A stretch of DNA of 44,726 bases, from positions 107,529 to 152,254 of the forward strand of contig VCMS01000370.1 in the NCBI GenBank assembly GCA_022539475.1. The letters are read 5' to 3'. Shown here piece after piece: positions 10,768 to 44,010 of the stretch. A program made the position numbers and the translations under genes. Every line of letters starts with the position of its first letter. The stretch's first letter is position 1. The notes beneath the pieces were generated by a model. The model was given only the letters and a program-made list of their open reading frames with translations, had not been told where the DNA came from and ran no database searches. The stretch comes from Gracilaria domingensis. Its lineage: Eukaryota > Rhodophyta > Florideophyceae > Gracilariales > Gracilariaceae.

Positions 10768-12981
10768 CTACGTCTTCGACGGTGTCCTGAGGCGACTCCG
10801 CCTCCTCTTCATTATCTTCCCGTGAATCACGGTGCTGCGACGGTAGCGACACCGGTGACTCACTCTCCGCGACGACGCGTGAATCCTCCTCCCCCTCCCT
10901 AGGTGGAGCGTTACGGGAGCAGTCATCACGTCTGTTGACGGTGTAATAGACGCTGTGAAACGCGATTTCACCAGCGGTGTGTGTTCCGATATCTCGGCTT
11001 GCGACGATATAATCGGTACCTCTGCGAGACCCCTTACAGGGTGGCGAAGCCCCACAGTAGGTGTAGTGTTCTGCGACGAGATTTCTCGGTTCTGTGTCTG
11101 TCCAGCTTCTTGCTTTGAATCCGAAACTACTTCCGTGTGCACGGTTGGGCCCTGCACAACGCGATCGCGGGAGAAACGCTCATGAGCGTCGCCAACTTCC
11201 AGTACGACTGTGTCCGTATTCACGCTAATAACGCGGTATGGAACATCAGCGATGGGTGAAAGCTTGTGGCGCCTCTCCTTTTCAGGGTTGTAGTACTCCT
11301 TCCTGACAAAGGCGAGGTTTCCCACTTTCAGTGGCGGTAGTGGTCTCCGTACCCGGGCATCAAAGTTCTGCTTGTAAGCGTGTTGTGCTTTCGCCATTGA
11401 CGACCTGGCGACAGGTACCATTGCGGATAACCACTGGTGCCATTGCAAGTAGTGATCCCGTATTGACGGTGACGTATCCAGCTTTGCTGATGGTTCGATC
11501 GCAACTGGCGGTGGTGTGCGTGAGAGCACGAGCTCAAAGGGCGATAAACCAGTTACTCTGTGAACTTGCGTATTATACGCATACGTCACGGTATCCGTGT
11601 AGAGATCCCAAGTTTTCGGGTGTTCAACAGTATAAGCCCGCAACGCGGAGAGCATTGTCCGGTTAAACCGTTCGACTTGCCCATTGCATTGGGGATGATA
11701 CGTCGTCATGAACAGATTCTTAACGACGAGTATCCGACAGACATCCTGGAAGAAACGCGCAGTAAACTGCGCACCATTATCAGAAAGGAGATTGACCGGG
11801 GGACCGTAGACCATAACCCAATGGCGAACGAATGCCTCCGCAACACTGCGTGCTGTAATCGACTTCAACGGAACTGTCCGGTCTAGCTTACTGAATCTAT
11901 CCGTAATAACGAGTAAGAACCGATTTCCTCGGGAAGTATGCAAGAACTCACCCAGTATATCGATGGCAATAAACTCCAACGGCGCCCTTGCGGGGAAAAG
12001 TGTTAGTTTCTTCGCATGGCGACGCTGTTTAACTCGCTCGCGAGCACAATGTGTACAAGCCTTCACGGTGGTGTAGCAGTCCAACGCTAACGCGGGCCAG
12101 TAGAAATCCCGACGCAATGTCGTGTATAACCGCTTAGCACCCGGATGGGAAGCCATCCGCGAGTGATGCGAGAGATGCAATACCCTTGTTTGTAAGGAGT
12201 GAGGAACCACAATCTGTGGGGTAGAACGAACCACTCTGACGAGGTAACCTTGTGTGTTAACCCCGAACAGGATGTTAGCACCACTATTAATTTGGGAGCG
12301 TATCCTCGTACAGAACGGGTCAGATTGCTGTTCCCGCACCAGCTCTTCTGGAGTAATGGGGACGAAGGTACCGGATTCCGGGTCTTCAACGTCTGCGACG
12401 AGCAAATCATCACAGATGTCGTCCGACACGATGTCGTAGTCTTCATCACCCTCCTCCATGAGGAAACAAGGGATATCTTCATCCTCGTCATCGACGGGTA
12501 AAGCTTCACCTTCCGTTTCCAAACGTGAAAGAGCATCCGCTTGCGCGTTCAAACAACCCTTCTTATAGGTGACCTCGTAGTCAAACTCGGCAAGCCGAAG
12601 ACGCCAACGCATTAGGCGTCCGGAGTGCTCCGTGACTGACATTAACCAACGCAAGGCGGAATGATCCGTATTGAGGGTAAAGTGTACACCCATAAGATAT
12701 GGTCGTAGAGTCTGCAAAGCCCATACCATGGCGAGACACTCCTACTCGGATACCGAGTAATTGCGCTCGTGCACGTGGAGTGTTCGAGACCAATAGCCAA
12801 TTGGTTTGCGTTCCCCTTCGGGTGTAGTCTGAAAGAGAGCGCAGCCAATCTGGTAATCACTCGAATCCGTATCCACGGTGTACGGCAACTCGTTCTTCGG
12901 TAACGCTAACACGGGTGTCGTAGTAACAGCCTCTTTAAGAGAGTTGAAAGCTTCCACTTGCGTGGGGGTAAGTGGTCCCAA
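10768..12981 (-). pseudogene. RNase H and integrase part of Pol, one in-frame stop
   Basis: The N-terminal segment (12981 down to 12745) has the RNase H start with TDSSDYQIGCALFQ and NYSVSE. A TAG at 12742-12744 interrupts it, and the frame resumes with ECLAMVWALQTLRPYL and NTDHSALRWLM. Downstream is integrase: the HHCC zinc finger (HHSRMASHPG...CTHCARE) and a DDE core with D in AIDILGEF, D in LLSDNGAQFT and E in GQVERFNRTML. A GPY/F-like basic C-terminal region follows. Apart from the stop, 653 codons are open. The enzyme would degrade the RNA strand and insert cDNA. The catalytic residues I can see are intact; only the nonsense codon and flanking frameshifts disable this part. Confidence 0.9.
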
Positions 12982-31911: not shown

Positions 31912-33471
31912 TCAGCAGCAGCCGAACACGCGCAGCGCGCCATCGTCGCCGCCAGTCACGATCACCAGCCCGCTGGTCACCGACTTGGAGAACGCCGCGC
32001 GCGCGCTCAGCGCGCGCTCCGGCACCATCTTGGGCGCGAACACCGCCGCCGTCACCTCGCCAGCGTCCTGCGCCACAAAGTACTCGTACGCGTTTCCCGC
32101 GTCCTTGCGCTGCTGCGTGCTGCTCTCGTCCTCGTGCACCGGCTTCTTCATCGTGCGCCCCACCGCCTTGGGCACGCGGTACAGCGAGTAGTCCACCTCC
32201 CAGATGTACACCATTCGGCCCTCCGAGCCGCACAGCACGTACCGTCCGCCCGGCGCGAACGACGCCGTCAGTCGCGAGTGGTTGTTTTGGTGGCCCAGGA
32301 ACTTTGTCAGGATCGACTTGTCGTCCAGTCTGTACAGCCGCAGTCTGGAATCGTTGGACGACACAATCACCTTGTCGCTCTTTCCGTAGAAGCGAAAGCC
32401 GCAAATCTTCTTCCCCTGCGCGTTCTTGGCGCGTCGAGAGCGAACGTCCAGCTGCGTGGTGTGCTTGAACTGCCATTCGCCCTGAATCTCATCAAACAGC
32501 CCGTAAAACTTGCAGCGACCTCGGTTGGTGCCTACCAGCGCAGTAGTACCATCCGGCGTGATTGCGCACGCCGTGATCAAATCATCGGTCTCCGCCTCGC
32601 AGAGCGACTTTCGTTCCTTGAGATGCCACATGGTCACAGTTCCGTTGGCCATACCAGATATGCATATTTGCTCATCAGTAGGATGAAACGCAATGCTGGT
32701 TACAAAGTCATTATGTAAAAGGCGTCGCAGACACGCCTTTGAGTTGGGATGCCATAAGCGAATGGTCTTGTCCATGCTGGCCGACAGCAAAAAGTCGTTC
32801 TTGCTCCAGCTCAACGCAGTGATATCGGAGGTATGCCCCTTGAAAACGGCCGCCGGCGCGTCTCTCCTAATGTACGTATAGCCCGACTGCACACGCGAAC
32901 CAGAGCTGGAAGAAGCAGACTGCCGCGAAGCAGCAACAGACTTACGCCCATCCTGAAGATAACAGTCCACATCCCACAGCTTAATCAGAGCATCCTGTCC
33001 CGCCGACGCCAAGTAAGTGCCCAGTTTGTTGAACTCAATGACTCGAATGGCGCCATGATGCGCAGCAACGTGCTGCCAGCGATACAAGCTACCGAAACGT
33101 CGATCCCGCTCGCGCTTCCTGTGCACGATGACGCGCACGTGGTCCGACGGTCTCAGTGTCCTGTAAACGTTCTGCAGCTCATCCGACCGCGCGCGCTTCT
33201 GCAGCGACGGAGCGGGACGCGCCGCCGAAGGCGGCACAGGCGGGCGCGCCGAATTCGGTCGCGGCGGAACGCCCTGCATGGCGGACTGCGCGCGGCTGGC
33301 AACCACGACGGGAACGGTGGACTTCTCCACCCAGTCGTGGTCCGTCACATAACTCCTCATGCCCGTATCCAGGTCCTTGAGCATGAAGTGCTCGATTCTC
33401 GGCGGCTTCTGCGCGGACGCCGCGGCCGCGGCCGCCACGGTGGGCGACGACGACGCCGAATTGGACGCCAT
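31912..33471 (-). CDS. WD40-repeat protein, WDR44-like
   Basis: 519 residues from ATG 33471 (MASNSASSS). An upstream in-frame start at 33789 would add Arg/Ala-rich sequence inside the shared promoter. WD repeats run from about 135 to the end: GAIRVIEFNKLGTYLASAGQD..IKLWD (140-167), GHTSDITALSWSKNDFLLSA..KTIRLW (212-240), DFVTSIAFHPTDE..TVTMW (255-282), then a block with GTNRGRCKFY, a conserved VRSRRAKNAQGKKICG, VIVSSNDSRLRLY and GSEGRMVYIWE. The SWSKNxFLLS, DFVTxIAFHP and SNDSRxRLY phrases are diagnostic of the WDR44 group; animal WDR44 binds Rab11 on recycling endosomes. The N-terminal segment has MLKDLDTGM. The Rab-binding part is not clearly conserved. Confidence 0.85.
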   Translation of the reverse strand: MASNSASSSPTVAAAAAASAQKPPRIEHFMLKDLDTGMRSYVTDHDWVEKSTVPVVVASRAQSAMQGVPPRPNSARPPVPPSAARPAPSLQKRARSDELQNVYRTLRPSDHVRVIVHRKRERDRRFGSLYRWQHVAAHHGAIRVIEFNKLGTYLASAGQDALIKLWDVDCYLQDGRKSVAASRQSASSSSGSRVQSGYTYIRRDAPAAVFKGHTSDITALSWSKNDFLLSASMDKTIRLWHPNSKACLRRLLHNDFVTSIAFHPTDEQICISGMANGTVTMWHLKERKSLCEAETDDLITACAITPDGTTALVGTNRGRCKFYGLFDEIQGEWQFKHTTQLDVRSRRAKNAQGKKICGFRFYGKSDKVIVSSNDSRLRLYRLDDKSILTKFLGHQNNHSRLTASFAPGGRYVLCGSEGRMVYIWEVDYSLYRVPKAVGRTMKKPVHEDESSTQQRKDAGNAYEYFVAQDAGEVTAAVFAPKMVPERALSARAAFSKSVTSGLVIVTGGDDGALRVFGCC

Positions 33472-33904
33472 ACGCGCGCTAGCGCAATTCACGACGCGCG
33501 GACGGCGCGGGTTTCGCGCGGCAGAGGGCGCGAGCGGGTTCGGTGGGACGGGCGAGCGGCGCGCGCGCCATGACGTAGACGGGCGGGCGCGGCAGCACGC
33601 GCGGCTGGCGCAGCCCGACTGGCGGCGCGGAGGCCGCGTCCAAGGAGGGGCGCTGTCGAAGGCGCGGCTCGACGTGGCGGCCCGCACAGCTGGCACGCGT
33701 GGCCGCGCGCGCGCGCTTTTGGCGCGAAACGCGCCGACCGAAACAACGACCGCCCGCCGCGCCAACGCGCCTCGCCCCTTCCGCCCCACATCGCCGCCGC
33801 CGCCGCCATCGCCGTCGCCGCTTCACACCTCCGCCACTATCTATCCATCTTACCTCCCGTCCCCCTTCCGCCCCCCCCTCCGCCCCTTCCCTCCCCCCCC
33901 CTCC
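33472..33904. promoter_or_regulatory. Shared divergent promoter, WDR44-like / CAF-1 large subunit
   Basis: 433 bp between two start codons in opposite directions. GC-rich, with C-runs (33868-33902) immediately before the CAF-1 start. No TATA box seen. Confidence 0.45.
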
Positions 33905-36901
33905 ATGTCCGGCCACCCCTCCACAGCGGCCGCGTCGCCGCCCGGCGTGCCCTCCCTCCCCACCCCCACACCCGCGCCCCCGCGCGCACCCGCGCCCCCG
34001 CACGCACCCGCGCCCGCGCCGCGAAATTCGCACCCCGCCCCGTATCTGCTGCCAGCAGCCGCCCCGCGCGCGCAGCAGCTGTCCACTTCTCCCGCGCCGT
34101 CACAAATTTCCGGCGCGTCTGCCGCGGCGCGAGTGTCTCCTCACCCAGCGCAAATAGCGCATCAGTATCCGCCTCAACCCTCTATGCGCCCTCTTGCTGT
34201 TCATCCGTCGATGATGCCTGCCCAGCGTCGCGTCGTCGTGCCGCACATGTCCGTACCCGCCCGTGCTATACACGATGGGAGATCGGCGATGAATGCCACG
34301 GTGACGCCGTACGAAGCCGCTGTCCGCCAGATGCTTTATTTGGCTGGACGTCTGCCGCCGCCCGCTGTGGAGCCGAGTCGCGCTGCGGCCGTGATGCCGC
34401 CTTCGCAGTCGATTCTCCCGTCTTCTCGTCAGCCGCCTTCGCAGTCGATTCTCCCGCCTTCTCGTCAGCCGCCTTCGCAGTCGATTCTCCCGCCTTCTCG
34501 TCAGCCGCCTTCGCAGTCGATTCTCCCGCCTTCTCGTCAACCGCCTTCGCAGTCGATCCTCCCGCCTTCTCGTCAGCCGCTTTCGCAGTCGACTCTCCCG
34601 CCTTCTCGTCAGCCGCCTGTGCCGCAACGTCAGGTCTCCAGTCTGCCGACGTATCCAACAACCCACCCTGTGCACCCACAAGCCGCCCAGGTAGCCCGTT
34701 ATCAGCCCTCCGCTGTTTCCTCCACCCCTGTTGTTGCTCGCCAGCCCGTACCGGTTCAGCGTCCGCCTACTGTCGCCGCGCAGACAGCCGGAGCTGGCCA
34801 AGATACGCAGCAATCCAAGCAATTTTCTCGAAGTCGCCTTGTTCCGCGCCCGCGAGAGCCTACTTTGATGCATTACTACGAACGCTTGGACAAGACAATT
34901 CAAGAAGCCACCGACTTTTCCCGAAACCTTCGCTATCCGCGAGACGGTCCGCCTCCAGATGGTACGCAGATTGCTAGAGTCGTCGCTCAGGATCTACAAG
35001 GTGTTCTTGGGTCTGAGCTGTATACTTTTCTAACCAAGCATGCTTCGGAAGAGGCCTACATTGAAGCCGTGCGTTCTAAGGTTGCTGGTGACTTTGTGGA
35101 ATATGGAGTATCTGGCAATCAGCTCTTGCTGATTGCAGATGCACTCATGGCCACGCCTGAACACTCCCCGTCTGCTATGCAGAATCTTCTACCACCGCAG
35201 CAGAAGCATCCGCATCCCATTGTTGAACGAGCGCGCGTCCGAGTGTTTGAAGCTGAAATTACTCATCTACCTTTGGCTTTCGTCGAGAAGTTGGTGAAGA
35301 CGCGCCGTTCGATGCGCCGCTTCAAATCCCGCATTGATTTGCATGTGCGCATCATCCTTGCACTGGAGGGGAAAGGACGCAAGGCAAGCGACGCGCAACT
35401 GGATCGATTGAAACTGCAACTGGAGAAGGCAGATCAGCAAGCTGAAAACGAGCGCAAACGAAGGGCTGCGGCGGAAGCGGCCAGGCTGGAGAAAGAACGG
35501 CGTGGGAAGGAGGCCGCTAAGCAGAGTGAAAGGAGTGGACTGCGAGAGAAGCAACTCAAGAAGCGCCGCCGACAGGAGCATGCGCAGGCCTCTTTCATGA
35601 AACGTTTCGTGAAACCGAAAATCGAAGAACGGCAGGGGGAGGACGCTCAAGAAGTTCGGTACGTGCCTCGAGAACGTTCTGGGTATTACGCTCAGGAGGT
35701 TGCGGGCGATCCAGACGTAATGAGCGTCGATTGGTGGCTTCTTTCTGAGCTGCAATTTGTGTCAGTTTCCAAACTGGATGAACAACTAAAGGAAGGTGCA
35801 AGCGATCTGAAATCTCACCTCAGGGCCTGTGCTGTACGAAGAAAGGAGGCGGAGAAGAATATCAATGGCGTTCTACAGGACTACCGTGCTCGGCGTCGCG
35901 TACCTTGCGACGATCGCTACCCGCGATTTACCAAAAGGCGAGCTGAGGTGCGGGGGCGTTGGACGCAGGGCCCCATTAAACTGCTGCAGTTTGATGAGAA
36001 CTACCGGCCTGCTTACTACGGTACTTTTCGCAAGTCAAAAGTGGTTTCGGGTCGTCGGCCGTTCAGAAAGGACAGTGAACTGAACTACGAGCACGATAGT
36101 GAGGCTGAATGGGAGGAGGAAGAGGGAGAAGATATCCAGGATGTAGAGGACGACAAGGAGCGCGCTAATGAAGAAGCCGAGCTGAGGAAGTTGTACGGCA
36201 GTGATGATGAAGATGATGATGACTTCCTGGACGATGACGAGGCTGGCGATGACGACGATGACGACGATGAAGAGGACGAGAATGGGGATCAGGACGGCGA
36301 GGGTGATAAGAAAGACAAAGGGGGCGATATTGTGGACTTGACAAAGAATACGGGGAAGGAACTGCAGAAGGCACGGGATAGTGGGCGAGGGAAGCGCAGA
36401 AAGTCGTCGGTCGGATCTGTGGTTATCGAGAGCGTCAGCTTCACTGGGGCGAGCAAGTTAGACGCATATCCGGTAAGCACGTTGTTGAACTCGAAACCAA
36501 TACAGATGTTCAACCCGTTTGTGTTCTCGGCGTCAGACATTGTTGCCGAACATTTGAAGGCCAAAGTGCCGTCTACTCGACCATCCAGACCGAGCAACAT
36601 CGACGAGCAAGCGAAACTGGACCTGGCGGTGGCTCTGGTGAACGACGGGTCAAATCGCGATCGAATCGTGTTGCAGTTTTGTGAAAACCGACGAACCAAA
36701 GGGCTGAATGTGCCGGCGAAGAGTGAGGTGGTTAGGGCGATTTCCGAAATGGCCACCAGGGAGAAACGCGACGGGGACAGCAGGGCGGTTTGGCACCTAA
36801 ACGACGCCAAGTTGGAGCGAATGGTGCAGCAAATGGGTAGCGCGCGACGAACGGTTCCTACGGCAGGACCTATCACCACGCCCGTGTCGGCGATGAAGTG
36901 A
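33905..36901 (+). CDS. CAF1A: Chromatin assembly factor 1, large subunit (p150/FAS1)
   Basis: 998 residues from ATG 33905 (MSGHPSTAA), the first Met after the C-rich leader. The N terminus (1-300) is Pro/Ser-rich and includes a 12-residue tandem repeat (about 162-238). The KER region (about 488-571; LKLQLEKADQQAENERKRR and onward) is highly charged coiled coil and ends in SFMKRFVKP. The family-defining block follows: KLLQFDENYRPAYYGTF, RRPF..DSELNYEHDSEAEW and EEEEGED (about 692-738). Next is a long acidic ED region (about 750-800) and a C-terminal winged-helix-like domain. CAF-1 brings H3-H4 to PCNA at replication forks; this subunit binds PCNA and histones. There are no frame problems. Codon use is ordinary compared with the GC-extreme genes to the left. 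Confidence 0.92.
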   Translation: MSGHPSTAAASPPGVPSLPTPTPAPPRAPAPPHAPAPAPRNSHPAPYLLPAAAPRAQQLSTSPAPSQISGASAAARVSPHPAQIAHQYPPQPSMRPLAVHPSMMPAQRRVVVPHMSVPARAIHDGRSAMNATVTPYEAAVRQMLYLAGRLPPPAVEPSRAAAVMPPSQSILPSSRQPPSQSILPPSRQPPSQSILPPSRQPPSQSILPPSRQPPSQSILPPSRQPLSQSTLPPSRQPPVPQRQVSSLPTYPTTHPVHPQAAQVARYQPSAVSSTPVVARQPVPVQRPPTVAAQTAGAGQDTQQSKQFSRSRLVPRPREPTLMHYYERLDKTIQEATDFSRNLRYPRDGPPPDGTQIARVVAQDLQGVLGSELYTFLTKHASEEAYIEAVRSKVAGDFVEYGVSGNQLLLIADALMATPEHSPSAMQNLLPPQQKHPHPIVERARVRVFEAEITHLPLAFVEKLVKTRRSMRRFKSRIDLHVRIILALEGKGRKASDAQLDRLKLQLEKADQQAENERKRRAAAEAARLEKERRGKEAAKQSERSGLREKQLKKRRRQEHAQASFMKRFVKPKIEERQGEDAQEVRYVPRERSGYYAQEVAGDPDVMSVDWWLLSELQFVSVSKLDEQLKEGASDLKSHLRACAVRRKEAEKNINGVLQDYRARRRVPCDDRYPRFTKRRAEVRGRWTQGPIKLLQFDENYRPAYYGTFRKSKVVSGRRPFRKDSELNYEHDSEAEWEEEEGEDIQDVEDDKERANEEAELRKLYGSDDEDDDDFLDDDEAGDDDDDDDEEDENGDQDGEGDKKDKGGDIVDLTKNTGKELQKARDSGRGKRRKSSVGSVVIESVSFTGASKLDAYPVSTLLNSKPIQMFNPFVFSASDIVAEHLKAKVPSTRPSRPSNIDEQAKLDLAVALVNDGSNRDRIVLQFCENRRTKGLNVPAKSEVVRAISEMATREKRDGDSRAVWHLNDAKLERMVQQMGSARRTVPTAGPITTPVSAMK
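34395..34615 (+). repeat. 36-bp coding minisatellite, about six copies
   Basis: A 36-bp unit coding PPSQSILPPSRQ repeats about six times within the N-terminal part of the CAF-1 gene. Copies differ by single bases (for example ATT/ATC, CCG/TCG), and the last has L for P and T for I. The length is a multiple of three, so copy changes keep the frame. Confidence 0.9.
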
Positions 36902-39149: not shown

Positions 39150-40613
39150 TGGATTAGTGCAACCCGCATCATAAACCATGTTTGAGAGAACTTTTTGGAA
39201 GGATATGGGCCATAACGTTGCCCGAAAAGCTTTGACATCAGGTAGAACATTGCGGCATTTCTTTCAGATTCAGACTTGCGCTGGCAGAGTCTGCCAGACA
39301 GACAGCGCCAGGAACCAAACCACTGCCCCCCACAGGAGTTGTTGGGTTCTTTCACCGCCTGTCATTATACTCCAGACAAGATTCATAAAGCTCAAAGCCT
39401 GCTTGACAGCAGAATTATCACAGCTGATTCCGTCTCAAGCCAAGCGTCTTCTGATGTCTAATTTCCATATCGAAGAAGAAGAAAGCATTTCCGTCAAGTT
39501 CGTGAAAATGTAGACTTGTGCTCACAGACGAATCCAAATGTCAAGCAACTCCCCCCACAGGAACTGCTGGGCTTCTGCATTTCTGGCAAGCATAACATGA
39601 GCCAAGTTGATAACCAAGATAGAAAACTCACAGAGGAATCCAAAGAGCCAAACAACTCCCCCTACAGGAGCTGCTGAGCTTCGGCATTGCTTGCGAGAAC
39701 ATCGTTTTCCAGGTCTACAACCATGAAACAATCTTGACAGTATTCTTGTCTGGCTTCCTTCAGCCTTCGGCAAAGATTCTTCGTCCTTCGTACACATGCA
39801 CTCGTGCTCACGGGCAGAGCAGAGAGCCCAACAACTACCCCCCACAGGCGTTGTTGGGTTTAAACATTGTCCGTTACCACATCGTACAGTAGGCGTACAA
39901 ATAGAGAAGAAACAGTGTCTGCGCCATTGCCCAAATCGCTTCGTTCACAGTAGAATTGTATAGCCTTCCTTTGCCTTATGTATTGATTTCTCTTCATAAT
40001 TCGTTCACAGTCGCGATCACGGATAGAATCAAGACCCATGAACTGCCCCCCACAGGAGTTATTAGGATCCTTCATCTTCCGCAAACACATCGTAGAACCA
40101 AGGTACAAATCGAGGAGAAAAACTTTCTGCGTCATTGTTCAAGTCGTGTCCTTGCTTCATAAAGCGCTCTCTCTCCAGATCTTGCACAGGCAGAATTAAT
40201 GACATAAACAGAGCGAGAAGCCAAAGCATTCCCCCCACAGGAATTTTCGGCTTTCGTCAATGTCCTTTGTCGCATAATATACCTGCTTCGCATAACTGGA
40301 CACAATCCTTCCCGCAAGGTTGACAAAAGGTTAGCTTCGAACCTCTTCCTCTTCATATAGCCTTCTTGATCCGACTTTCAGTACAAAAACCGCACCGTGC
40401 ATCAGAGTGACCATCAGTCTAACAACTCCCCCCCACAGGAAGTGTCGACCTTTAAAATCTTCCACATCTGCAAAGTGGTCCAGCAGCCTATCCCGAACGG
40501 ATTGTGGACGCAGCGGTTTTCATATGTCTCAAACACACCACCCGGAACGAAGAGTACTTGCATCACCATTCATAGCCTCTCGTCTCATGCACCCTCTTCG
40601 CCAGTAACCACTT
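39150..40613 (-). pseudogene. Decayed continuation of the cysteine-rich repeat array
   Basis: Past the stop of the repeat protein at 40614, the minus strand still shows repeat-like pieces in changing frames: PGGVFETYENRC (about 40520), RSVYVINSACARSGERALYE (about 40150-40225) and NNSCGG/TTPVGG-type segments. The core corresponding to the PVGG end of each unit recurs at about 39330, 39555, 39660, 39843, 40050, 40235 and 40433. No open frame longer than about 90 codons remains. Either the gene was once longer or these are separate broken copies. Confidence 0.6.
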
Positions 40614-42200
40614 CTATAGCGAGGTACGCATCTCAAAATTCCCATCTATACCCATAACACCCATCAAAGTGGTTAGGGCATTATGATCAAGCGCAATGTG
40701 ACCAAACATATAACTTTGCACCGCACAAATGGTTCCGTGTTCACACAACGCTGTCCTTTTTCGACTGGCACCGGCGCTGTTTGAAATGTAATCTCCTCCC
40801 TCACGTACTCTGCATAACCCTCCGCGGCATAGTAAACTTTTTGCCAATACCCAGAACGCATTCCATCCATACGGCTTTCCAGCGCTCATCGGAACTACAC
40901 ACTTCTCTTTCCCATGACAACTTGCACAGGGCGTCTCGTGGGTGCCTTTAGTGTTCGACGTGCCAGAGCTTCCTGTACGAGCCTTGCATAATCCTTTCTG
41001 GCACGTATGACCTCGATCACAAACCCGGAAAGGATCGCGCCCGCAACGGAGTCGCGCTCTCATCGGTCGCACACATTGTTTGCTTTGGATTGTCCCAGCG
41101 CAAACAGTTCCATCAACACGCACGGATCCTTGTCCTGTGCAATCTCTATGCAAAGGAGTTCGACAGATTCCATTCTCATAAATCAGCCCTTGAGCACAAA
41201 CATAGAGATCTCGATTGTAGTGAAATCCACGTTGCCTTGGAAAGACGCCTTTCTTTAAAAGCGTATTCTTCGCGCATACTGCTTCATGCTCGCACAGCGG
41301 ACGCCTTGCCTTATTCAGGTCCTTCCGCCAAACGGTGAACTGGTTATGCCCGCATCGATAACCAACTGGCGTTCGCAGCGTGCACTGCTTCCTTTGCTCT
41401 GTATCAGCGCAGACATTCCCACGTATACCAAAAGATCTGGAAGCCGAACCATTTTCTCCAAGAGAGATATTTCGCTCTCTGCATCGTCTTCGCATCCAAT
41501 ATAAACTAGATCTGAAAGCCCGAAACGGTTTCTTTCCGCAGCAGGACTTCGTAGACTTTGACTTCATGGGAAGCTTCTTCATCGCTGTCCCAGCAGGACC
41601 AGCACTTGGTATGTAGACAGAGTCAAGAGTCCTGAGATTTCCCCCCACAGGAATTTTTCGGTCCCGGCAACGTCCATTGTCACATTGTAGATCTTCTGCG
41701 CATGCCGAGCACGGATCTTGACCGCTACGCCCTCCTACTCGCTCTGGCGTCACGCAAATCTTCTGTCTTGCAGTTCCCACGCAAACTGATCCAGGCACAC
41801 AGACAGATCCAGCAGCCATACAACTTCCCCCCACAGGAGTTGTTGGCCTCTGGCGTCGTCCGTGGACAATCCTTAAACAAGCAGAGAACGAATCATATCT
41901 ACAACGGTGTCCTACATACGTTCGTTTCACGCAAAGCGTCTCGAGTACCGTCCCGGGGCAAACAGAATCAGGGCAACACACTGACTTTGAAGTGATATTG
42001 ATATCCCCCACCGATACCATAGATCTTCTCCATAGCATGTTTGGGCTTTGCAAACCTGGATGGCAGTAGCAGGACAGATTTTCTCCACGATTCCTGAACG
42101 GCCTTGATGTTGTCAAAAGCTTTTCAGTCGCGTTCGAAGAATAAACAGAATGGTGAATGTAAACGTCACCGAAGCGAATTCCCCCCACTGGAATTTTTGA
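39311..42200. repeat. Array of stem-loops with near-invariant loop CCCCACA
   Basis: On the plus strand the 7-nt loop lies at 39328, 39553, 39660 (CCCTACA), 39841, 40048, 40233, 40431, 41643, 41829 and 42183 (CCCCACT). In nearly all it is closed by CC on the left and GG on the right. Stems differ among copies but remain largely complementary: copy 39841 has CCCAACAAC..CC with GG..GTTGTTGGG; copy 40233 has AAGCC...ATTCC with GGAAT...GGCTT; copy 41829 has GCCATACAACTTCC with GGAGTTGTTGGC (two bulges). Spacing is often 180-225 bp, matching the 186-bp coding unit. The loop codes the PVGG part of the unit where the frame is intact. Confidence 0.7.
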
Positions 42201-42593
42201 CATGTATCGATCCTTTTCACGTAGTAGATCTGTTTCGCAAATCCATAAAGGATTTTGTCCACAGCGATGCCCGGGCCGCTTACGTAAAAGCCTATGCTTC
42301 TTCCTTGCCATTCCAGCACCAACAAAATTGGTGCTCCAAGTCAGGCCTTCCGTGATGACAAAGTATGGATCAATTCTACGTGTCACATTGACAGCCTTTA
42401 GAATCACATTTCGCATCCAGTGGCCGGGCTTTGTAACAATTGAGTCCTTTGAGAAGGACATATTAATGGACCCAGTGCTCACATCTTCCTGGTGTGCGGC
42501 AAGTATTTTGGTCCTTTCATACTCATAGGAGAGTTCGGTGACACCGCTTGCCACCACCAAAACAAAAAGCAACGTGAAAAGCAGGGAGCACAT
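40614..42593 (-). CDS. Secreted cysteine-rich tandem-repeat protein
   Basis: 659 residues from ATG 42593. The signal peptide is MCSLLFTLLFVLVVASGV. The rest consists of degenerate units of about 62 residues; the best one reads SVCVPGSVCVGTARQKICV, then VGGRSGQDPCSACAEDLQC and DNGRCRDRKIPVGG. The general pattern is GSVCxGT, C, VGxRCGxDPF, C, C, GxCR, (I/T)PVGG. I count about nine to ten units. In many, expected cysteines are replaced (for example SAGPAGTAMKKLP), so disulfide pairing must be incomplete, yet the frame is open throughout. There is no domain name I can assign; a cell-surface or extracellular-matrix role is a guess from the signal peptide and Cys repeats. A TATA box lies about 121 nt upstream. 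The array continues in broken form past the stop codon. Confidence 0.6.
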   Translation of the reverse strand: MCSLLFTLLFVLVVASGVTELSYEYERTKILAAHQEDVSTGSINMSFSKDSIVTKPGHWMRNVILKAVNVTRRIDPYFVITEGLTWSTNFVGAGMARKKHRLLRKRPGHRCGQNPLWICETDLLREKDRYMSKIPVGGIRFGDVYIHHSVYSSNATEKLLTTSRPFRNRGENLSCYCHPGLQSPNMLWRRSMVSVGDINITSKSVCCPDSVCPGTVLETLCVKRTYVGHRCRYDSFSACLRIVHGRRQRPTTPVGGSCMAAGSVCVPGSVCVGTARQKICVTPERVGGRSGQDPCSACAEDLQCDNGRCRDRKIPVGGNLRTLDSVYIPSAGPAGTAMKKLPMKSKSTKSCCGKKPFRAFRSSLYWMRRRCRERNISLGENGSASRSFGIRGNVCADTEQRKQCTLRTPVGYRCGHNQFTVWRKDLNKARRPLCEHEAVCAKNTLLKKGVFPRQRGFHYNRDLYVCAQGLIYENGICRTPLHRDCTGQGSVRVDGTVCAGTIQSKQCVRPMRARLRCGRDPFRVCDRGHTCQKGLCKARTGSSGTSNTKGTHETPCASCHGKEKCVVPMSAGKPYGWNAFWVLAKSLLCRGGLCRVREGGDYISNSAGASRKRTALCEHGTICAVQSYMFGHIALDHNALTTLMGVMGIDGNFEMRTSL

Positions 42594-44010
42594 CCCTCAT
42601 GGGCTTCCGCCTTTATTGCACGCGGATTGATGCAAACGGTTCCTTGTCAAGTAACCCGACAAAATTCGGCTGAGAATGAGGGGAGAACGGATGAACTGCG
42701 GTCGAATGTCCGGCTTATATACCCTCGGAAACGAGGCAGGAGAGGCCAGAGGAGTGCTGCCAACGAAAATTCTCTGACAATTCGAATCACGAAGAACGCA
42801 GGCGAGGAGATAGCGCGTTCAAATGCATCCAAAGTACACGTTCTCTTCAAGCGCCGTTCTGACACTATGAATTAGGGAAGTGAGAGTATCAGATACGCTC
42901 CGCACGCCCCCTGATTACATCAACCTCACAAAAGCATCGAAGCTGTCCCATGACGCGCGCAATTCGTACAACGACGCATAATCACGCCCCAGAAGATTTC
43001 TAGACCGCTTCGTTTTCATGGGAGATTTAGTCAAAGAATAGAGAGAGGTAAAGTACTGACGGCACACGGGGAGTTTGATAATGCAATTTGTTCAATTTCT
43101 TGCTGCCATCACGCCAAACCTTCGATACGCATTTTCAGTCTCTTTCCCAACATGAAAGATACAAACGGAATGATGCTTGATAATAACAGGATCGCAGATG
43201 CTTTGAGTTTCTAGAGCGACAAAAACCAAGGTGGACATGTCTTCAGTCAGACATTAGAGACATTTCCGCACTATCCAGATCACGTTTGGAAAATCAGTTT
43301 TGCAATTGAAACACCTCTGCGAGGAGTTCTCCCAGGCTCACAGCCGCATAGTAAAGCCGTTGACCAGGAAAATCATCTCAGTTCGTGTGCAACAGATTTT
43401 CCAGTGGTGAGAATGCAAGCACATGCTGCGGCTGTTTATCATCTTCGATCACGTGAACATGTTCTCCGCGTAGAGAACTAATATCAGAAGTCCATTTCAA
43501 ACCCATTCTGATGATTTTGGGTTCACCAAGTCTAGTACTGCAGAACAATTCGAATGAACATAGCTCAATAGCAATTCACTACGTTGTGCACAGGTTTGAC
43601 GGTCAAGCTTTGACCGATCGGAAAGTGCTTCATAGTCATTCATTATTCCCAAAATGTTTTCGGAGGAAGACCTTCTACAATTGTACATTGTGAATGGTGC
43701 AAATGTTCCAAAGCTGAGTTCATCCAAGCGCGACGATGAAGTCTGATCTGATCAGCTTGTACCCAAGGCACTGAATGTACCGTTCTACCGACGACACCTA
43801 TGGGTACCGTCGTAGCGCGAATGTGCCATTATACCTTCGTACCCTTGGCACTAAACTTGTATTTGGTAGTTCAAAGTTCCTAGATGTACCTGCGAAGGTA
43901 GGATAAGATCCATTCGTAAATTTCAGAAATTTCTGTTAGGTATTATCCGATAATACCTTCGTATCTCTTTGTGCAGCACACAATGTGCGTGAAGGTAAAA
44001 AGGTTAGGGA
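42594..44010. other. Intergenic stretch, no gene recognised
   Basis: Contains the promoter of the cysteine-rich gene at its left end. Frames are short and featureless. At 43760 and 43849 the motif GTACCC(AA/TT)GGCACT occurs as a direct repeat about 90 bp apart. At 43938-43958 there is a hairpin (AGGTATTAT, loop CCG, ATAATACCT), preceded by the 12-bp palindrome CAGAAATTTCTG (43924-43935). These may mark a small non-autonomous element. Confidence 0.45.
42714..42721 (-). promoter_or_regulatory. TATA box of the cysteine-rich repeat gene
   Basis: The sense strand reads TATATAAG, about 121 nt upstream of the ATG at 42593, a plausible distance for a gene with a leader of roughly 90 nt. Confidence 0.5.

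Follow-up and report, generated by a model that had tools for sequence, protein, structure and literature searches.

Hairpins with a nearly constant UGUGGGG loop in decayed cysteine-repeat arrays of the red alga Gracilaria domingensis: a candidate structured RNA

A decaying cysteine-repeat gene of the red alga Gracilaria domingensis carries an array of hairpins on its sense strand. The 7-nt loop of these hairpins is retained beyond the protein framework and coding no longer explains it, and the stems covary in three paralogous array lineages. Compensatory change goes beyond shuffled and shifted controls, as expected of a structured RNA element under selection; over all units the covariation is biased to the sense strand, and a promoter-like box has been retained. 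On the basis of these results, we see an even chance that the element is a sense-strand RNA hairpin that originated from P-V-G-G codons and is kept by selection on RNA in copies lacking a reading frame.

Occurrence of the hairpin array

The window, that is, the whole stretch of 44,726 nt analyzed here, corresponds to positions 107529-152254 of contig C370 (genome of 78 Mb in 680 contigs). The degenerate cysteine-repeat protein encoded on its minus strand (P0001; Table 1) has an N-terminus resembling a signal peptide, as judged by eye. Its best matches to the repeats of an intact gene in contig C140 had 46-51% identity, and a Pfam search of it returned no match. Cysteine-repeat units run on past the 659-aa frame, without a frame, to about position 39300. 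Long open members of the same family are present in C140 (1146-aa frame) and C58 (977 and 482 aa; a protein on C58 is named FGB62_58g042). A decayed array precedes the C140 gene on its upstream side (L009:1142-3632), and decayed arrays of greater age were found in C25 (two) and C201 (one). The 659-aa frame contains no stops, and its cysteine content (6.5%) is half that of its relatives (12-13.5%), which implies that it stayed open while the framework decayed. In addition, divergence between the open part of the window copy and the intact gene showed an excess at third positions. The 659-aa frame argues for recent coding of part of the window copy.

Contig C364 (99% identity to C370, with 27 gap openings and 9 mismatches across 5.5 kb) was handled as the same locus; its annotation, FGB62_364g01, spans just 448 aa of the 659-aa frame. 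Contig C369 was considered as an independent decayed copy and dropped, since after about position 40765 its indels were nearly as frequent as substitutions relative to C370 (154 mismatches and 138 gap openings in the alignment), a pattern that looks like unpolished long reads. The three contigs are nearly identical, apart from one-base indels, up to abrupt splits near 40765 (C369) and 39273 (C364). Past these splits, gaps were about as numerous as substitutions or more so (one stretch of 866 columns had 73 gap openings against 33 mismatches), again as in unpolished long reads. The split between C370 and C364 adjoins a palindrome, CTGGCAGAGTCTGCCAG, at window positions 39281-39297. Both C364 and C369 were left out of all counts, except for the count of TGTGGGG stems given below, in which C364 duplicates window copies.

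Eleven hairpins were identified on the minus (sense) strand between 39308 and 42209, with the loop TGTGGGG in eight of them and a one-base variant in the other three (Table 1). The first-pass annotation had claimed at least ten stem-loop copies, seven of them beyond the point where the frame is lost. Ten hairpins are indeed where it placed them, 7 of the 11 lie beyond 40614, where the 659-aa frame ends, and the eleventh, at 42012 (7-bp stem), was absent from its list. On the plus strand, CCCCACA occurs at eight places (39328, 39553, 39840, 40048, 40233, 40431, 41643 and 41829), with one-base-different copies near 39661 and 42182; in the entire window, both strands included, it was found 17 times against 4.2 expected from shuffles. 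The copies are also paired, as had been claimed, though hairpins 1, 2 and 4 are weak: duplexes between the own arms of the ten copies comprised 11-18 pairs, with energies of -8.0 to -23.1 kcal/mol. Individual copies do not all stand out by pairing alone. When 3313 centers along the array were scanned, four copies came within the first 13, another four fell at ranks 176 to 303, and two (42191 and 41651, both within the open frame) were at about rank 1000; some strong hairpins were located away from the core. Of 140 heptamers occurring at least four times in the arrays, TGTGGGG had the strongest mean stem. The number of hairpins per locus ranges from 4 to 11, and their spacing is mostly 107-241 nt, with larger gaps of 1.2 kb in the window and 0.7 kb in the C140 array.

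Table 1 Features of the hairpin array in the window (energies in kcal/mol)
Feature	Coordinates	Strand	Loop	Energy	Remarks
Promoter-like box	42697..42721	-			TATATAAGCCGGACATTCGACCGCA; common to paralogous loci; genome pattern search
P0001, degenerate cysteine-repeat protein	40614..42593	-			659-aa open frame; contains hairpins 1-4
Hairpin 1	42163..42209	-	AGTGGGG	-8.0	weak stem
Hairpin 2	41986..42032	-	GGTGGGG	-8.1	stem TGGTATC/GATATCA; core altered, yet hairpin retained; energy of the fold
Hairpin 3	41809..41855	-	TGTGGGG	-23.1	17 pairs
Hairpin 4	41623..41669	-	TGTGGGG	-8.0	weak stem
Hairpin 5	40411..40457	-	TGTGGGG	-13.4	frame lost from here onward
Hairpin 6	40213..40259	-	TGTGGGG	-17.3	
Hairpin 7	40028..40074	-	TGTGGGG	-12.1	
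Hairpin 8	39820..39866	-	TGTGGGG	-17.4	
Hairpin 9	39640..39686	-	TGTAGGG	-21.2	17 pairs
Hairpin 10	39533..39579	-	TGTGGGG	-13.1	
Hairpin 11	39308..39354	-	TGTGGGG	-13.4	

Several other features were observed in the window. A retroelement frame with matches to RNase H, H2C2 and integrase core is located on the minus strand at 10768-12729. A 36-bp tandem repeat (34396-34618; 6.2 copies, 95% match) sits in a frame (33359-36901) with a match to the CAF-1 subunit A dimerisation domain.

Retention of the loop

On the sense strand, the core CC-TGTGGGG-GG reads as codons for P-V-G-G in the linker that separates cysteine repeats, an origin that the first-pass annotation had missed. To compare the core with the rest of the repeat, units were aligned after a search with a profile in which the 12 core columns were masked, and the 40 columns with a constancy of 85% or more among 32 intact units were taken as the cysteine framework. 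In 22 decayed units, 65-69% of the framework columns were retained (262/382 in 11 C370 units and 247/382 in 11 units of the decayed C140 array), whereas retention of the 12-base core was 86-93% (123/132 and 114/132, respectively). When only rows matching at 8 or more of the 12 positions were considered, the values were 117/120 (10 C370 rows) and 103/108 (9 C140 rows); the latter excludes C140 row 1517, which slipped by one column (6/12 despite an exact 11-mer), and includes C140 row 2484, which has another type of linker (8/12). The intact 12-mer was present in 14 of the 22 rows, against about 1% expected if the core survived like the framework. The mean identity between pairs of decayed units (19 units, leaving aside the three non-PVGG rows W 3182, C140 1142 and C140 2484) was 0.91 in the core and 0.43 beyond about ±25. 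For 21 intact units, a set that includes non-PVGG linkers, the corresponding values were 0.43 and 0.56. Intact units of C140 and C58 vary at the synonymous sites of the core, whereas only 2 of 19 copies from C370 and the C140 array differ there; the cores of the three intact C140 PVGG units are similar. Inter-core segments of the window (for example, 40439-40241, 40241-40056 and 40056-39848) contain stops in all three frames, and no open reading frame could be followed through the array.

Further evidence came from the older arrays. A core-masked model trained without the C25 and C201 rows (E up to 0.1, one strand) identified 12 units in the C25 and C201 stretches (L018 and L035), and the loop was present in all of them (10 exact and 2 with a one-base difference). 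In random stretches of L018 and L035, the exact heptamer was found in 0 of 3051 cases and a heptamer within one mismatch in 141 of 3051. The closing pairs had changed in most C25 and C201 units, several of which are still paired (for example, TTTC/GAAA and TTTTCT/AGAAAG), whereas the loop had been kept; thus, the constant part of the element is the 7-nt loop. Hairpin 2 of the window was recovered by a core-masked model trained on C140 rows only. The loop also changed slowly between paralogous arrays: 1 of 28 positions differed between C370 and C140 (background 291/1034; p=0.0012), 1 of 28 between the two C25 arrays, C25a and C25b (p=0.0017), and 2 of 28 between C25a and C201 (p=0.022); between C25b and C201 (3 of 28) it was not significantly slower than the background (p=0.23). 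The loops that the first-pass annotation proposed to look for in related cysteine-repeat loci are therefore present in the C140, C25 and C201 arrays, and its claim that the protein cannot account for core and pairing agrees both with the difference between framework and core retention and with the loops kept in C25 and C201 without most of the closing codons.

Next to the C201 array, L035:5223-6508 contains a 348-bp direct repeat (94% identity) and several near-palindromes of 33-93 bp.

Covariation of the stems

The arms flanking the loop had a mean pairwise identity of 0.44-0.55 (left) and 0.50-0.65 (right) against a background of 0.43. Arms that drift at nearly the background rate yet stay paired, around a loop that is nearly frozen, form the pattern of an RNA hairpin that is read at its loop.

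In 26 decayed units, duplexes between a unit's own arms averaged -14.6 kcal/mol, compared with -10.4 kcal/mol for arms crossed between units (p=1e-5; 100,000 permutations of the 3' arms). The difference was significant in each of three loci: C370 (n=10, p=0.0095), C140 (n=8, p=3e-5) and C25 (n=8, p=0.00065). When the arm length was varied, the CC/GG pairs were included or omitted and orthologous units were removed, p ranged from 0.008 to 0.09 in C370 and from 5e-5 to 0.011 in C140. Of 32 other centers, taken every 5 nt between -80 and +80, one gave p<0.05 (+20, p=0.014). In six intact coding units, arm covariation was not significant (p from 0.055 to 0.81), a sample with little power. It should be noted that the permutation and strand tests were carried out without C140 3517 (a near-duplicate of 3282) and without the C201 units, and that hairpin 2 (42012) was in none of the permutation tests.

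We also examined a named structure of 12 pairs, which was read from one of the tested units and is hence biased toward these units. Its covariation in 19 units was 0.225, compared with 0.165±0.020 after shuffling and at most 0.120 for slid versions; two-sided change was seen in 8 of the 12 pairs, a number equaled by 9 of 500 shuffles. In 26 units, the covariation was 0.245 against 0.169±0.019 shuffled; by one of five measures, the 26-row alignment did not go beyond shuffles (8 pairs with both partners altered vs 6.1; 71/500). The sequence-only model R1 was applied to the examined loci only. RNAalifold on a plain MAFFT alignment of the 26 units recovered only five inner pairs and no covariation, probably because the bulge and mismatches differ among units.

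Relatedness among units was removed by a simulation on pairs of paralogous units (C201 excluded), in which substitutions equal in number and kind to those observed were placed randomly, without indels (two of the nine pairs have one). The sum over the nine pairs was -149.4 for the real sequences and -96.4±11.1 for the simulated ones, and none of 4000 simulations was as low. Taken singly, 3 of 9 pairs were below 0.05, and 4 of 9 in the reverse direction. The strongest pair, 41837 and C140 2204, differs by 10 substitutions in 44 positions; its stems have energies of -23.1 and -24.3, compared with -11.6±3.8 in the simulation. Thus, the constant loop on variable but paired stems, as described in the first-pass annotation, was recovered in both its parts: the loop is retained, including the 12 of 12 loops of the masked C25 and C201 search, and the stems covary significantly against three controls (3'-arm permutation, a slid structure or moved center, and simulated substitution in nine unit pairs).

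The advantage of own over crossed arms was -4.2 on the sense strand and -2.6 on the antisense strand, and over all units this difference exceeded the expectation from crossed arms (p=0.0009). By locus, it was significant in C25 (p=0.012) and not in C140 (p=0.07) or C370 (p=0.18). Such a difference counts against both a DNA cruciform and template switching, which predict none; strand-biased mutation could mimic it.

Distribution in the genome and databases

We searched the genome for the 21-mer CAACTCCTGTGGGGGGAGTTG with up to three mismatches and obtained 16 matches, 15 of which were in the cysteine-repeat family, while the reversed control gave none. A dispersed palindromic or transposable element was thus rejected as far as near copies are concerned. 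The shorter 11-mer CCTGTGGGGGG occurred 42 times genome-wide, compared with 67 for its reversed control; 31 of these were in C370, C364, C369, C140, C25 and C201, and the 11 elsewhere appeared to be unrelated judging by their flanks. In the examined sequence stretches, 33 of 55 TGTGGGG sites had stems of -12 or better. Four of the 33 were outside family genes and arrays (window 2384, 21638 and 33970, and one in L017), two were in the intact C140 gene, and the C364 entries (L012) duplicate window copies. Among 21 arrangements of the same letters, TGTGGGG had the best mean (-12.2), followed by GTGGTGG (-11.7).

The promoter-like pattern TATAWAAGCSNNNCWTTCGNNCGCA had five matches in the genome, all upstream of members of the cysteine-repeat family, including the decayed C140 array, and none for the reversed control. 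A box shorter by one base precedes the first C25 hairpin by 0.7 kb and recurs at another place in C25, where a hairpin was looked for and not found. This second place (L041, C25:781500-788000) contains a 955-bp block with the box, which is 92% identical to the C25 array locus and stops about 60 bp short of the expected first hairpin stem, with no hairpin after it. Downstream of both hairpin arrays, L018:1925-1958 and L009:3844-3877 share a 34-bp stretch (88% identity) composed of a CT repeat followed by TTTATGGGC and TAGCTTAA; it is possibly a shared 3'-end signal, or a mere CT repeat.

In Rfam 15, no family was found for 39200-42800 either above the gathering threshold or at E up to 1; the sole Rfam match in the window was a tRNA elsewhere. 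No title or abstract on the loop or the arrays could be found in the literature searched, which covered few subscription papers, and UGUGGGG together with hairpin, as whole words, gave no match. As far as these searches reach, the sequences suggest a new RNA family, which would work like known hairpin-array RNAs.

Possible function and alternative explanations

How might such an array function? The heptaloop UGUGGGG, on a stem of about 11-18 pairs, would have arisen within the P-V-G-G linker codons. In frameless copies, selection on RNA would hold the loop nearly frozen, whereas the stems would drift yet stay paired. The loci would be transcribed from the sense strand, and a protein would read the loop, largely indifferent to the sequence of the stem, so that the array could act as a multivalent binding platform or decoy similar to CsrB or NORAD. 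For the copy with the 659-aa frame, the array could alternatively serve as a control region in the 3'-UTR. The element is best read as an exapted hairpin-array RNA, probably of the multivalent, protein-binding kind, and broken gene copies may have been reused as structured RNA.

The main rival holds that template-switch (quasipalindrome-correcting) replication errors copy one arm to the other, leaving stems complementary without any function. Such events have been reported to create or maintain hairpins and compensatory changes (excerpted text of PMC8794818), and the bulged A was lost in units 39561, 39668, C140 3282 and C140 3517, a change of the quasipalindrome-perfecting type. However, template switching leaves the frozen 7-nt loop unexplained and predicts both occasional inverted loops, none of which was seen in the arrays, and equal sense and antisense signals, in contrast with the difference observed; we regard it as rather unlikely. 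A cruciform or hairpin acting at the DNA level, which would promote gene conversion or expansion of the array by serving a recombinase or by acting as a break site, appears quite improbable. Palindromes are known fragile sites, and C370 and C364 diverge close to another palindrome, but the stem arms are not homogenized among units, which disfavors gene conversion, the covariation is strand-asymmetric, and near copies are not dispersed (15 of 16 21-mer matches being in the family). The first-pass annotation had left the choice between a structure recognized by a protein and one used in recombination, by which the array might expand or be exchanged. Constant loop and paired, variable stems speak for the former; the latter finds no support in arms that are not homogenized, arrays without inverted loops and strand-asymmetric covariation.

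Two further explanations concern translation. Core and palindrome might be left over from the P-V-G-G linker in arrays that died recently, and the in-frame reading of the core, the third-position excess in the open part and the similar cores of the three intact C140 PVGG units would fit this. We consider residual coding improbable: the framework is down to 65-69% and the core is not, core synonymous sites that vary in intact C140 and C58 units differ in just 2 of 19 decayed copies, and intact genes had no significant arm covariation (six units, with little power). It is also disfavored by the C25 and C201 hairpins, most of which lack the closing codons while loop and pairing persist. Alternatively, the hairpin might stimulate programmed -1 frameshifting at GGGGGGA, by which the array would still be translated. 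The string G_GGG_GGA fits the form of a slippery heptamer, but the segments between cores are closed in all three frames, and several C25 hairpins lack GGGGGGA; frameshifting through the array was therefore ruled out, and we give it hardly any probability.

To return to the selected RNA hairpin, its broadest form would be an undescribed eukaryotic family of hairpin-array RNAs that originated in the linker codons of a degenerating cysteine-repeat gene and whose UGUGGGG hairpins titrate or localize an RNA-binding protein. We put this forward tentatively, as possible but somewhat doubtful. If true, the path from a protein-coding repeat to a structured non-coding RNA would be traceable, and a single genome would hold the intact (C140), half-dead (window) and fully non-coding (C25 and C201) stages. 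Two open questions are addressed: how coding sequence gives rise to structured RNAs, and whether function or template-switch mutation underlies the covariation of stems in non-coding DNA. A nearly frozen loop in a staged series of decay helps to separate function from template switching. The present evidence is from one species. According to the excerpted text of PMC10388701, related Gracilaria species have been assembled from PacBio data and mapped RNA-seq is available in a browser, and both questions are therefore testable.

Comparison with known hairpin RNAs

Bacterial sponge RNAs of the CsrB/RsmZ type contain many hairpins with a fixed loop motif on varying stems, and the present array likewise has a constant loop motif on many variable stems, its binding through the loop being putative. 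As far as available descriptions of these RNAs go, their motif is GGA, bound by CsrA, whereas the loop of the array is UGUGGGG; in addition, the array is eukaryotic and derives from coding repeats. In Smaug/Vts1 hairpins and iron-responsive elements, a protein reads the loop and the stem may vary; their loops, CNGG(N) in the Smaug recognition element and CAGUGN with a bulged C in the iron-responsive element, do not match UGUGGGG. The Smaug recognition element was rejected as a candidate, since the loop does not start with CNGG; TGTGGGG was present at 25 places in the scanned array stretches.

The mammalian lncRNA NORAD contains 12 or more repeat units, which have diverged to the point that just short motifs of sequence and structure can be recognized (excerpted text of PMC4947167), and the units of the array have similarly diverged around a short retained motif. 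In contrast, the core of NORAD, as far as that text describes it, combines a linear Pumilio site with separate stem-loops, whereas the conserved string of the array is the loop itself and its units derive from a protein-repeat gene. Finally, hairpins maintained by template switching share compensatory stem changes with the array (excerpted text of PMC8794818), but such maintenance leaves unexplained the nearly frozen loop and the strand bias observed here.
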